Shown here: positions 2,451 through 49,512 of the stretch, in pieces
Numbering within the stretch: the first letter of the stretch is position 1
Layout: every line of letters starts with the position of its first letter
Source: Anadara kagoshimensis
Taxonomy: Eukaryota > Mollusca > Bivalvia > Arcoida > Arcidae
Reading direction: 5' to 3'
Assembly: GCA_021292105.1 (NCBI GenBank)
Contig: CM037864.1
Location: 44,733,816 to 44,797,815 of the forward strand
DNA: 64,000 bases
The notes under the pieces: generated by a model
Told to the model about the DNA's origin: nothing
Database searches by the model: none
What the model saw: the letters and a program-made list of their open reading frames with translations, nothing else
Translations under genes and position numbers: made by a program

Positions 2451-3260
2451 TAGTAATGGCTCAGAGCACAAGACATTAAGGTCCTTGAATGGGACAAATT
2501 CACTGCTGTGGCCCTTGAATGGGACCAATTCACTGCAAGTTTTTCTAGGGTAGTAATGGCTCAGAGCACAAGACATTGAGGTCCTTGAATGGGACCAATT
2601 CACGGCTGTGGCCCTTGAATGGGACCAATTCACTGCAAGTTTTTCTAGGGTAGTAATGGCTCAGAGCACAAGACATAGTGGTCCTTGAATGGGACCAATT
2701 CACTGCTGAGGCCAATCAATGGGACCAATTCACTGCAAGTTTTTCTAGGGTAGTTATGGCTCAGAGCACAAGACATTGAGGTCCTTGAATGGGACCAATT
2801 CACTGCTGAGGTCCTTGAATGGGACCAATTTACTGCTGAGGCCCTTGAATGGGACCAATTCACTGCAAGTTTTTCTAGGGTAGTAATGGCTTAGAACACA
2901 AGACATTGAGGTCCTTGAATGGGACCAATTCACTGTTGAGGCCATTCAATGGGACCAATTCACTGCAAGTTTTTCTAGGGTAGTAATGGCTCAGAGCACA
3001 AGACATTAAGGCCCTTGAATGGGACCAATTCACTGCTGAGGCCCTTGAATGGGACCAGTTCACTGCAAGGTTTTTCTAGGGTAGTTATGGCTCAGAGCAC
3101 AAGACATTGAGGTCCTTGAATGGGACTAATTCACTGCTGAGGCCCTTGAATGGGACCAATTCACTGCAAGTTTTTCTAGGGTAGTAATGGCTCAGAGCAC
3201 AAGACATTGAGGTCCTTGAATGGGACCAATTCACTGCTGAGGCCCTTGAATGGGACCAAT
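2451..3260. repeat. Compound minisatellite: 100-bp unit built on a 30-bp subunit
   Basis: The landmark TTTTCTAGGGTAGTAATGGC recurs at 2541, 2641, 2741, 2871, 2971, about 3072 and about 3172: period 100, with one 130-bp unit carrying an extra subunit. The 30-mer (CTTGAATGGGACCAATTCAC core) occurs two or three times per unit. Open frames on the - strand are by-products, since 100 is not a multiple of 3. Confidence 0.9.
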
Positions 3261-10204: not shown

Positions 10205-10800
10205 CACAGTTTGTTTGAACAGCATTTTCAACCCCCTGTCAATTGTTGTTTGACAGTTTGCAAGCCCATGTCAATTGTTGTTTTAGAATTTTCAACCCCT
10301 GTCAATTGTTTGAGAATTTGCAAGCCCCCTGTCAATTGTTGTTTGAGAATTTTGAAGCCCCCTGCCCCTGTCAATTGTTATTTGAGAATTTTCAAGCCCC
10401 ATTTCAATTGTTGTTTCAGAACTTTCAAACCGCCTGTTAATTGTTGTTTATGGAACATTTTCAAGCCCCTGTTAATTCTTGATTGATGAATATTTAAAAA
10501 AAACCTGTCAATTATTGTTTAGGGAAAATTTTCAAGCCCCCTGTCAATTATTGTTTGAGGAATATTTTCAAACCTCCTGTCAGTTGTTGTTTAGGGAACG
10601 GTTTCAAGCCCGCTATCAATTGTTGTTTGAGGGATGTTTTCATACCTGTCAATTGTTGTTTAGGGAACATTTTCAAGTCCCTATGAATTCTTGTTTGAGG
10701 AGCATTTTAAAGCCTACTGTCAATTCTTGTTTGAGAAATATTTTCAAACCTCCTGTGAATTGTGATTTTGAGGAACATTTTCAGAACAAAAACCTATCTA
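10205..10800. repeat. Degenerate ~37-bp minisatellite
   Basis: About 16 copies of a unit containing CCTGTCAATTGTTGTTTGAG followed by GAACATTTTCAAGCC, with frequent length changes. It causes the Cys/Pro-rich open frames seen here on the + strand. Confidence 0.8.
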
Positions 10801-44370: not shown

Positions 44371-44539
44371 CAGCACTAGACAGTCGTTTCGGAATACAAT
44401 TTCTCATTAGTGCTTGGGCCAAAATTATGAAACCAAAACTTTTTCCCCAAGATGTTGAAAAGAAACCCGAAGGACATAAATATAATATATCAAAATCAGC
44501 TAGGGAAATACTTTGCATGAGGGAGTATACCTTAGTTTT
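44371..44539 (+). repeat. Dispersed repeat 2, left part of interrupted copy
   Basis: CAGCACTAGACAGTCGTTTC to GAGTATACCTTAGTTTT, ending at the large element. Its continuation is 49327-49512. Confidence 0.7.
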
Positions 44540-45815
44540 TAGTCCAAGAGATCATGACTAAAACCGGGTGAACGAGGCCAAAAGGTTTGAAGGTTGATTC
44601 TTGTAGGAAAATGTCCCTAGTTACTGAAAACCAATTTCTTACGCGTCAAATCGTTTCCGATTTTTCAATCAGAAACAGTTTTTGAAAAAAAGTCTCTGCA
44701 AATGTTAAATTTTTGGAAAAACTAAAAAATTTTGAAGCATTCTGTGACAAAAACAACACAGAAGTGCTCATTCTATCTTTCATTGTGGATACATGATAGA
44801 TTAAAATGAAAAACATCCTGACAGTTTTCCGATTTTGTGTCAAAATTTTAAAATAAGCAATAAAATCAGTGCTGAAAAATGCGTTTTTATCATATCTACC
44901 GTCTTTCGAATCTTGTAAATTTGGTGCTAATGCATTAAATCTGACAAACTATATATTTTTATAAAGCATTGGTAGTCCTGTAGATAAAAATGTCACACAA
45001 ATTTGGAAATATGAAACCTTAATACCGTAGCAAATAAATATGCTTCCCCTACCCCCAAAATACGAAAATGTCAAAAATTCATTATTTTGGCCCATACTTG
45101 CCAATAAGTGTCTAAAACAAAACATAATTGTTTGTTACATTTTTCGTCTGTTCCCAACATATTTATAAAACAATAATATGTAGAGTGATTGGTGATCTAA
45201 TATGAAAATTTGCACTTTGCATAAAACAATAGTGTGGGAACCGCGTTTTCATGAAATCTCTTGTGCTCTACTTCTTGTAATTTTGTTATATAGGCATTAA
45301 ATCTCGAGATTTATATGTCGCTGTAATGCCATGGCATATTCAAGTCTGACAACATATAAAACTATTGGAAATACCGAAGTTTATAGATGAAACGGATAAA
45401 TTTATTTCCCCTACCCCAAAATTGAAAAGCATGTGAAAATCCATTTTTGTGCAATATATGCCGATTTGTGTAACTAATGAAGATTTCAAGCAAAAGTACC
45501 AGCAACAATGATAAAACATGCTTCAAGGATTTAAAATATTTGTAAAATGCTTTAGCTTAAGGACAAATAGGTCTAACTATCATAATAAAATTGCTTATTT
45601 TATTCATTTATATGTAAATTGCTATAAGAAAAAAGGAGCTTCGCCTCTTGTAATTTTGTTATTTAGGCATTGAATCTCGACTGTTATATATTGGCGTTAT
45701 TCCCCGACATATAAGTTTCTAATTACATCAAAAACTGTCGGAAATAGCAAAGCTTGTAGATGAGGCAAACGAATGTATTTCCCCTACCCCAAAGTTGAAA
45801 ACAATTGTGAAAACC
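44540..45815 (+). repeat. Left terminal inverted repeat with ~365-bp tandem units
   Basis: Shared unit features: CCCCTACCCC, a TTGTAATTTTGTTA...GGCATT...TCTCGA block and an ATTT(T)GTGCAATATATGCC-like block. A further diverged unit runs from 45781 to about 46090 beyond the inverted arm. Confidence 0.75.
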
Positions 45816-46621
45816 CTGTTTTTGCCAATGTGTGACAATTAGTATTTCTAATGGAAGTTTCAGGCAAATCTACCTGTAACAATGGTAAAAGAAGCATCAT
45901 GGATGTAAAATATTTTACAAAATGCATTATTTTAATTATTTTAATGACAGATTGGTCTAATTTTTCATAGCAAAATGCTTACTTTATTTATTTTCAATTC
46001 AATGTGCGATGGCAAAATAGAAGCTTCACTGTTTGTATTTTTGTTACATAGACATTGAATTTCGAATAACAGATATTGAGTCAATGCGCTTACTCTAAAA
46101 TCGCTAAAACATGAAAATATGTAACCATTAAAACAACAACTGGAACCTCAGGCAAACGACTAAAAGTCAACTGATAGAAATCCAAAATATTTGCAAATTA
46201 GACAATGTGCAAAAATACTTGTGTAATTGTTACACACTCTAAACATGTAAGACAATCAATATTTGGACATTTGTAAGGCAGTGTTAGTCAGTCTTGAGAC
46301 AGATCCTCAAAATCATCTTCAAAATAACAAACCATTTCCTTGGACATGCATATAAATTTACATTCTTCCTCTTAAACTTATTTAAGGTACATTGAGGCGA
46401 TAGAGTTCTGTTTGTCGAATAGTACATGTTGACAGAGAGTGGTTACTCTGATCATCTCTTCTTTGGTTTCTGTTAAAAAAGTAACTGAAATATGATTCAA
46501 CAATTTCTAGCAATAAATTGCTTAGATCTGGTTTAGTTTTGTTCAGTTTCCTTCAAAACTCTGAATTGAAATAAGTTTTTTTTTCTTGTTACTACTTTCA
46601 TTCTCAATTTTTATTTCACAA

Positions 46622-46720
46622 GTAGTGGCAGGAGGCGACTACCCTTCCCGAGCACCGACCCTTTTTCCCTACCAGATGTTTACGTGTTTAACTTTGTCAT
46701 TTTTTTTTAACTTTGCTTTT
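46622..46720 (+). mobile_element. Short Penelope-like UTR fragment inside the large inverted-repeat element
   Basis: Shows CAGGAGGCGACTACCCTTCC, GAGCACC and a TTTACGTGTTTAAC block. It lies in the loop of the 44540-49326 element. Confidence 0.5.
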
Positions 46721-47117
46721 GTTATTGTGATAATATCATAATGTTTGTGTTTATATTTGACGATTTACATAACGTATTTTATCAGTACTCTATTGCTTCA
46801 ATTCAACATGTTTTAATAAAATTTATCTCCTTCCATTGTCAGTTGAACACTTTACTCATTGTTTCATCGACCTTTGCCACTCTGGTAATGTTAGCAATTT
46901 CACTTTTTCTAACCGAGCTTTGCTGTCCATATCTAGCTTATTTTAGCTTAAACATAAGTATCTACAGGTTCTATATTCTTTAGTAAAACATCTAAATCTT
47001 AAAGCATTTCTAATATCCGTGATTCTCCTTTTTGCTTTTTCTGTTTTTCTATGACCACGATTATATTTCGTAGTGGCGTTTACCTATTATTCGTGATTAT
47101 ATGGTAAAAGAAGTTTA

Positions 47118-47592
47118 CTAAACCATATTTATTATTACTAAACCCCGTTTATCAAAGATTGTGGCCACATTTTACAAAACTTTGCATTTTCACTAGTGGC
47201 ATCATTTTATTAGGAAGTGACCTAATGTACAGTGTTCAAAATAGAACGTGGCACAAGGAACCTGGTCACAGGCTTAAGGTTGAAATGTGTCCAATACCAC
47301 TTTTTGTCATTATAATATGACCAGGCAATTTGTGATGTAATTGCTATCAATCATTCCTTTAAAGGATACAAAGGTGGAGTTGTTGGACACAGAAATTTTG
47401 TCAGTTAGAAGTGAAATTGAAAACTTTACGGAGTTTGCAGACTTTTTAAAATAAGATTATTAGTGGATACTGAAATTATACATTAGGTCACTTCTTAATG
47501 AAATGATTCCACAAGAATAAATTGCAAAGTTTTATAAAAACAAGGCTACAATCTTTGATAAACGGGTTTTAGTAATAATGAATATGGTTTAG
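47118..47592. mobile_element. Foldback nested in the loop of the large element
   Basis: Arms 47118-47230 and 47479-47592 are inverted copies (CTAAACCATATT...GACCTAATGTA), with roughly 80-85% match by eye and a ~250-bp centre. MITE-sized. No clear target duplication is visible. Confidence 0.65.
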
Positions 47593-47789
47593 AAAGCTAA
47601 TGGATCTGATTAAACTTTATCTAATGGAGATACATGCATGTCTGATAAAACCCAATAGTTTTATATCAAACCATAACCAGAAATGCCTTACATTCAGTCT
47701 TACCATTGACTAGAAATGAACTTATTTGCATTTATTATTTCATAATATCAGGTTGTTCGTAAAATTGTGCGTCTTTCTATTTTTTCAAA

Positions 47790-47937
47790 CGTGGCGGTTG
47801 TAATTGCTATAAACATGAGGTGTTTATGCTTCAGGAGCACCCGGTCCAATTTGCTAGTTTCAAGTTTTGTTTTTTTTTTTTGGGGGGGGGGATTATGATT
47901 TGGAAAAGGATTGATATGTTTGTTTTTGATTTTCAAT
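47790..47937 (+). mobile_element. Short Penelope-like UTR fragment inside the large inverted-repeat element
   Basis: From AAACGTGGCGGTTGTA through GGAGCACCCGG to GATATGTTTGTTTTTGAT, with a T/G homopolymer replacing the middle. Confidence 0.6.
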
Positions 47938-48056
47938 TTTAAATATGAATGTTTCCTAAATACATTTTGCTATTACTTTGAATCATAAAAAATAATTGTT
48001 TCATAGACATCTGGTTAAAACTTTCATTAAAAGCATAAATATGCATACATGTGCTA

Positions 48057-49326
48057 AAAAGGGTTTTTCATTATTTTGGGGTAGGGGAAATAAATCTATT
48101 CGTCTCATCTACAAGCTTAGCTATTTCTGACAGTTTTTGGTGTATTAGAAACTTATATGTCGGGGAATAACGCCAATATATAACAGTCGAGATTCAATGC
48201 CTAAATAACAAAATTACAAGAGGCGAGGCTCCTTTTTTCTTATAGCAATTTACATATAAATGAATAAAATAAGCAATTTTATCATGATAGTTAGACCTAT
48301 TTGTCCTTAAGCTAAAGCATTTTACAAATATTTTAAATCCTTGAAGCATGTTTTGTCATTGTTGCTGGTACTTTTGCTTGAAATCTTCATTAGTTACACA
48401 AATCGGCATATATTGCACAAAATGGATTTTCACATGCTTTTCAATTTTGGGGTAGGGGAAATAAATTTATACGTTTCACCTATAAACTTCGATTTTTCCA
48501 ATAGTTTTATATGTTGTCAGATTTGAATATGCCATGGCATTACAGCGACATATAAATCTCGAGATTTAATGCCTATATAACAAAATTACAAGAAGTAGAG
48601 CACAAGAGATTTCATGAAAACGCGGTTCCCACACTATTGTTTTATGCAAAGTGCAAATTTTCATATTAGATCACCAATCACTCTACATATTATTGTTTTA
48701 TAAATATGTTGGGAACAGACGAAAGATGTAACAAACAATTATGTTTTGTTTTAGACCCTTATTGGCAAGTATGGGCCAAAATAATGAATTTTTGACATTT
48801 TCGTATTTTGGGGGTAGGGGAAGCATATTTATTTGCTACGGTATTAAGGTTTCATTTCCAAATTTGTGTGACATTTTTATCTACAGGACTACCAAGGCTT
48901 TATAAAAATATATAGTTTGTCAGATTTAATGCATTAGCAACAAATTTACAAGATTCGAAAGACGGTAGATATGATAAAAACGCATTTTTCAGCACTGATT
49001 TTATTGCTTATTTTAAAATTTTGACACAAAATCGGAAAACTGTCAGGATGTTTTGCATTTTAATCTATCATTGTCCACAATGAAAGATAGAATGAGCACT
49101 TTTGTGTTGTTTTTGTCACAGAATGCTTCAAAATCTGAAATTTTAGTTTTTCCAAAAATTTAACATTTGCAGAGACTTTTTTCAAAAACTTTCTGATTGA
49201 AAAATCGGAAACGATTTGACGCGTAAGAAATTGGTTTTCAGTAACTAGGGACATTTTCCTACAAGAATCAACCTTCAAACCTTTTGGCCTCGTTCACCCG
49301 GTTTTTAGTCATGATCTCTTGGACTA
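48057..49326 (-). repeat. Right terminal inverted repeat
   Basis: Reverse complement of 44540-45815, differing by scattered substitutions and small indels. It ends in CTCTTGGACTA. Confidence 0.8.
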
Positions 49327-49512
49327 TTTTGGGGGGATTTGACATTTTAACTAGCAGCAAATTTAGGCAATGGTATATTTCTGACAATAATACACAGTTA
49401 TTGCCTACTGAGTTTGTGATATCCTCGGGGCACCAGCCACCAGCAGAGATACCGACACATTTTATAGATAATGTATTTAAAGTGTAATAATATAATAACA
49501 CTACTCAAAATA
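49327..49512 (+). repeat. Dispersed repeat 2, right part of interrupted copy
   Basis: Continues from TTTTGGGGGG through ATTTTAACTAGCAGCAAATT and TCTGACAATAATAC. Its end (GTGTAATAATATAATAACAC) is also present at 44291-44312. Confidence 0.65.

Follow-up and report, generated by a model that had tools for sequence, protein, structure and literature searches.

A probably non-autonomous, foldback-shaped DNA transposon family with 3-bp target site duplications in Anadara kagoshimensis

The 64,000-nucleotide stretch of the Anadara kagoshimensis genome analyzed here (referred to as the window) contains, at positions 44540 to 49326, a 4,787-bp element with long inverted arms and the termini TAGTCC...GGACTA. 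With a probability of roughly 0.85, we consider this element a member of a non-autonomous, foldback-shaped DNA transposon family that is moved in trans by a transposase making 3-bp duplications. Terminal inverted repeats (TIRs) with fixed tips were found at many loci, and the target site duplication (TSD) is of fixed length, both as in TIR DNA transposons, while the architecture is that of foldback elements, with long inverted arms, internal tandem repeats, and no coding capacity. The family thereby joins a foldback shape to 3-bp duplications and, within a single assembly, has hundreds of dispersed tips and a strongly preferred length. A first-pass annotation of this DNA had already described a dispersed element of foldback shape without a visible transposase, a description that was borne out.

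Architecture of the element

Self-alignment of the window recovered the coordinates, the TAGTCC/GGACTA tips, and the long inverted arms made of ~365-bp units, all as first annotated. When inverted, the left and right arms (44540 to 45883 versus 47995 to 49326) align at 94.4% identity over 1,350 columns. The outer end of each arm consists of a unique tip of ~204 bp, which is followed by diverged ~365-bp units; a direct repeat inside the left arm was detected by blastn with an E-value of 2.6e-86. The motif CCCCTACCCC occurs in the left units at 45046, 45408, and 45781 and is mirrored in the right units at 48078, 48449, and 48811. We judged the relatedness of the units by their blastn E-values and not by unit-to-unit identities, which are inflated by free end gaps; since a random control averaged 69.1%, the 63 to 76% identity between different units is uninformative. 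The features of the element are as follows.

44540..49326, no strand: whole element, TAGTCC...GGACTA, bounded by end-to-end alignment with 8 of 20 loci (92.9 to 98.5% identity)
44537..44539, no strand: left TSD, TTT (the fourth T, at 44536, belongs to a T run)
49327..49329, no strand: right TSD, TTT, from flank comparison
44540..45883, plus strand: left arm, from inverted self-alignment
47995..49326, minus strand: right arm, from inverted self-alignment
44540..44743, plus strand: left unique tip, not part of the tandem array (the direct repeat starts at 44744)
49123..49326, minus strand: right unique tip, mirroring that on the left, from inverted alignment
44744..46159, plus strand: left array of ~3.9 diverged ~365-bp units, from direct repeats, its inner portion reaching beyond the inverted arm
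47978..49113, minus strand: right array of ~3.1 units, from direct repeats
45046..45055, plus strand: CCCCTACCCC unit motif, left, one of three
48811..48820, minus strand: unit motif, right, one of three
45884..47994, no strand: middle (~2.1 kb), common to copies and without a long reading frame
47112..47598, no strand: internal palindrome of the middle (487 bp, 65.6% self-inverted), from self-alignment

Target site duplication

The outer flanks of the element rejoin into a dispersed repeat, of which two uninterrupted copies, near 24.2 to 24.4 kb and 43.96 to 44.14 kb of the window, show the empty site, just as the first-pass annotation had proposed. Because one of these copies holds 5 T and the other holds 4 T at that site, a TTTT/TTTT duplication is indistinguishable from a 3-bp TTT duplication at this locus. 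Across the 21 two-ended copies (the window copy and 20 others), the duplication was 3 bp long in every case, and the fourth base matched in only one of them, namely, the window copy, which lies in a run of T. The 4-bp duplication originally read from the window was therefore rejected. The duplicated triplets are of varied sequence (AAT, TTT, ATA, CTA, ATT, TTA, CAT, GTA, AAA, CAA, GAG, and TTG), with A or T as the central base in 21 of 21; a 22.3-kb copy, outside this set and discussed below, is flanked by ACG/ACG. As L032 and L033 share flanks at 99% and thus represent one insertion that was later duplicated, the set comprises 20 independent insertions. L033 was kept in the count despite a deletion near the end of its left tip, and eight further copies in the set were chosen by the spacing of their tips and not by their TSDs.

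Assembly collapse at the arms is unlikely: other loci show the same structure, and in a comparison of 13 copies, long flanks were common to L032 and L033 only. These two loci (C8, at 14.29 Mb and 13.51 Mb, respectively) are 98.2% alike over 5.5 kb, the locus having been duplicated either in the genome or in the assembly.

A dispersed family with fixed tips and a preferred length

The genome searched comprises 1.115 Gb in 36 contigs, and matches were found on contigs C1 to C19. A genome-wide search with the first 200 bp of the arm, suggested as a check by the first-pass annotation, did recover many copies with the same tips: all 40 candidates that were scored, out of 1,010, matched. The 20-bp tip gave 781 matches at ≤3 mismatches, versus 41 for the reversed pattern used as a control, and the commonest exact tip variant gave 416 matches, versus 0 for its control. 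Among the 100 listed tips of this variant (contigs C1 to C5 only), 76 are arranged in 38 convergent pairs less than 30 kb apart, 24 are unpaired, and none has a divergent neighbor. Among these listed tips, pair length peaks at 5.0 to 5.3 kb, with 23 of the 38 facing pairs spanning 5,060 to 5,247 bp.

The eight loci, among the first 20 opened, that align end to end with the window copy do so with the middle included. In a ninth locus (L037), the first 10 bp are missing; the remaining first loci are rearranged, interrupted, or one-ended. Given that the middle is common to full copies, a freely varying middle of the kind seen in Foldback (FB) elements was rejected. The copies fall into two groups, one of ~4.77 kb, mostly with the tip ...ATCATGACT and including the window copy, and one of ~5.2 kb, mostly with the tip ...ATCATGGCT, with an arm divergence of about 8 to 11% between them. 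The tip base is an imperfect group marker, because L059 (4,981 bp) combines the tip of the ~4.77-kb group with arms of the ~5.2-kb group. Short derivatives of 545, 829, 881, and 1,570 bp keep the family tips and the 3-bp duplications, one of them carrying a single change within the last six tip bases.

No matches were found in Rfam, the left arm was without a match in a phage collection, and the tip had no exact matches in viral contigs. The letters of the tip were also unmatched in a text search of the literature, a result that says little. At another locus, L043 (C16:11578500-11588000), two mirror-oriented copies lie with their adjoining tips 565 bp apart and are 98.4% alike over 4.4 kb.

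Concerted evolution of the arms

In a comparison of the first 1.2 kb of the arms of 13 copies (L038, L043, and L045 to L050 excluded), the two arms of one copy were on average 97.8% identical, versus 95.65% for arms of different copies on the same side and 95.56% for arms of different copies on opposite sides. At no position were different bases fixed on the left and on the right. Had the arms diverged independently from a time before the split of the two groups, such fixed differences should have accumulated, and none were seen. L042, the only ~5.2-kb member of this set, differs from the window copy by 10% and carries 58 private variants that are common to both of its arms. In a second set of seven copies, comparisons across groups gave 88.6 to 91.8% identity, and arms within a copy gave 94.8 to 99.0%. 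These alignments show that the arms evolve in concert, a pattern that is visible between subfamilies but not always among close copies. Since the effect within groups is weak, homogenization is shown for lineages and not for individual insertions.

Similarity between the arms drops at their inner end, to 90% and then to 68% over the final pair of the 100-column blocks compared. Between L042 and the window copy, the middle is more diverged (86.4% identity) than the arms (90.5 and 88.6%).

The number of units also changes. In L038, one arm contains eight exact CCCCTACCCC motifs but the opposite arm only three, and the first six units are near-identical copies of unit 1 (98 to 100% alike), which shows that unit 1 has multiplied recently in tandem at this locus. 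If these findings are upheld, the family would offer many replicate arm pairs for testing how long inverted repeats stay alike, as well as a test case for a transposon arm that seeds satellite-like arrays.

Coding content and longer copies

The window copy contains no stop-to-stop frame longer than 100 amino acids (aa), the longest being exactly 100 aa, and no Pfam match was obtained for five of its six frames of at least 70 aa (the sixth, of 71 aa, was outside the scan). Longer copies were inspected for a possible autonomous partner. Of the nine facing pairs longer than 5.3 kb among the tips listed, seven were opened, three of them fully and four partly, with those of 5,498 and 5,638 bp left out. 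The 10.6-kb copy contains long interspersed element (LINE)-like frames, with matches to Exo_endo_phos (E-value, 1e-4, just under the Pfam cutoff) and UPF0029 (E-value, 1e-12), and was rejected as an autonomous copy because these frames, with their endonuclease, represent an unrelated insert. The 7.0-kb copy was rejected likewise, as its extra DNA carries a reverse transcriptase frame (RVT_1; E-value, 3e-9). Inspection by eye revealed no transposase-like frame of at least 100 aa in the 6.7-kb copy (L053) and none of at least 80 aa in the parts of the middle read from the 9.0- and 8.5-kb copies (2.5 kb of L061 and 2.3 kb of L062, respectively).

The 13.5-kb copy holds a piece of a separate high-copy repeat with an 84-aa frame (L060:491-742, minus strand), which gave no Pfam match and which, from its appearance, we take to resemble a nuclease of mollusc transposons. 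When this frame was searched for genome-wide (150 of 1,147 candidates scored), only L060 itself, by eye, was seen to fall between listed tips; being part of a separate high-copy repeat, the frame was rejected as the enzyme of the family. At L049 (2240 to 4728), a Phage_integrase-like frame (E-value, 5.8e-5, under the Pfam cutoff) adjoins a YqaJ frame (E-value, 3.1e-7), presumably a Crypton-like combination, and no second tip was found within the 10 kb read. A further open frame, of 826 aa, at L045 (7000 to 9477) is built of 69-bp tandem repeats.

Proposed mechanism and points against it

Under the explanation that we favor, mobilization in trans, a transposase that is probably a DDD/E enzyme would recognize the shared tip and move the element by cut-and-paste, and a 3-bp staggered cut of the target would give rise to the 3-bp duplications. 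The arms may stay alike through pairing with each other and mutual conversion, either as snapped-back single strands or when the gap left by excision is repaired. Unequal exchange within the tandem array could change the number of units.

Several observations weigh against this explanation. No transposase and no autonomous copy were found in the copies opened, which represent a minority of the tips; positions were listed for ~160 of the 781 tips, and fewer than that were opened. Eight of the first 20 loci (L037, L038, L043, and L045 to L049), in which one or both tips are missing or altered, were left out of the TSD count. As for the arms, the window copy has no private variants common to both arms and 13 that occur in one arm only, and in the set of seven copies, the two arms were each other's nearest relatives in three (L058, L059, and L054) and not in the other four (L053, L042, the window copy, and L034). 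Conversion between the arms, finally, is inferred from patterns of divergence and not from mapped tracts.

A 22.3-kb pair of tips

One facing pair (C3:3281949-3304261) spans 22.3 kb and has the family tips; because it is flanked by ACG/ACG, it most likely represents one inserted unit. In the pieces read between these tips (L063 and L064; C3:3286500-3289500 and 3293500-3296300), we found one frame of the C2H2-finger type and another of 582 aa. The latter contains the letters NSAYGSL and DTDSLY, which we read, tentatively, as motifs of a protein-primed DNA polymerase B. The 582-aa frame had no Pfam match at an E-value of 0.01, solved structures gave no polymerase match up to an E-value of 1 (the best match, at 0.16, being a mismatch endonuclease), and PHROGs gave a weak endonuclease-like match to its N terminus (E-value, 4e-5).

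These frames, together with the shared tips and the 3-bp ACG duplication, raise the question of whether a ~22-kb element with a gene for a DNA polymerase B-like protein gave rise to the ~5-kb copies through internal deletion. A probe taken at 2.4 kb from the left tip matches the middle of ordinary copies, and at the usual position, and the mirror probe on the right has no match. This outcome looks as if a separate large element of ~17 kb had inserted into a normal 5.2-kb copy; it would also be expected if the 5.2-kb form is a deletion product. In the other two long copies with extra DNA that can be named, the frames are those of an unrelated reverse transcriptase or endonuclease. With the 582-aa frame lacking both a Pfam match and a polymerase among solved structures, we consider a deletion origin improbable. 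Slightly more improbable still is the fuller version of this scenario, in which the carrier of the polymerase B-like gene itself makes the 3-bp duplications, the 5-kb family is its non-autonomous offspring, and the arms serve both replication and homogenization. If it were true, there would be a large polymerase-bearing transposon unlike Maverick/Polinton elements, whose duplications are 6 bp long.

Relationship to known transposons

In their shape, the copies recall FB, Tetris, and Galileo, the canonical foldback elements of the Mutator or P type, with which they share long inverted arms with tandem units, a variable number of units, and the absence of a visible transposase. Like this family, FB of Drosophila melanogaster has snap-back arms of tandem repeats; unlike it, FB makes duplications of ~9 bp and has a middle that is often absent or variable. 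The Tetris element of Drosophila virilis, according to the relevant passages of PMC4079207, is also apparently non-autonomous, with long inverted ends that contain internal tandem repeats (TIR-220) and without an identified transposase, and its TIR-220 repeats additionally form satellite-like arrays, comparable to the arm expansion in L038. However, the same passages report duplications of 8 to 10 bp and three structurally complete copies, versus 3 bp and hundreds of tips in the present family. Galileo, a member of the P superfamily, has long TIRs that are able to grow by tandem repeats and by uptake of internal sequence but differs in its 7- to 8-bp duplications (consensus, GTATTAC) and in having known transposase-encoding segments, as described in parts of PMC4168063. 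With a duplication of 3 bp in all 21 copies and not 7 to 10 bp, the family described here falls outside the Mutator and P types, and its membership among the canonical foldback elements is highly improbable.

Among superfamilies with shorter duplications, EnSpm/CACTA elements are marked by CACTA-type termini and PIF/Harbinger elements by a TWA target triplet. The termini of this family are TAG...CTA, and its duplications extend beyond TWA to CAT, GAG, TTG, and CAA, for which reasons both superfamilies are disfavored; piggyBac, which is marked by a TTAA duplication, does not fit the varied 3-bp TSDs. By the Repbase rule, as given in PMC4455052, placement calls for agreement at tip positions 1 to 11 (with one mismatch allowed) together with an equal TSD length. 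In the pertinent sections of PMC10045372, TSDs are given as 3 bp for Zator and 3 or 4 bp for AcademX, whereas those of the Harbinger group are either absent or 1 to 4 bp long. Zator (3 bp) and AcademX (3 to 4 bp) are therefore possible relatives, both matched by duplication length only. The family may belong to AcademX as a non-autonomous branch moved by an AcademX transposase, an idea that we regard as possible without being likely: the 3-bp TSD lies within the AcademX range, and Academ elements have been amplified in bivalves, as stated in part of PMC10294476, but the placement goes by TSD length. Moreover, AcademX is defined by its transposase, together with a nuclease according to the text available from PMC10045372, neither of which was seen in the copies opened here. 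Mobilization by another superfamily with 3-bp duplications, be it Zator, EnSpm/CACTA, or PIF/Harbinger, is held to be about as probable; Zator fits in its 3-bp TSD and was compared by that length alone.

Other repeats in the window

Apart from the arms of the element, the window contains further tandem arrays, at positions 2451 to 3260 (~100-bp units) and 10223 to 10783 (~36-bp units).

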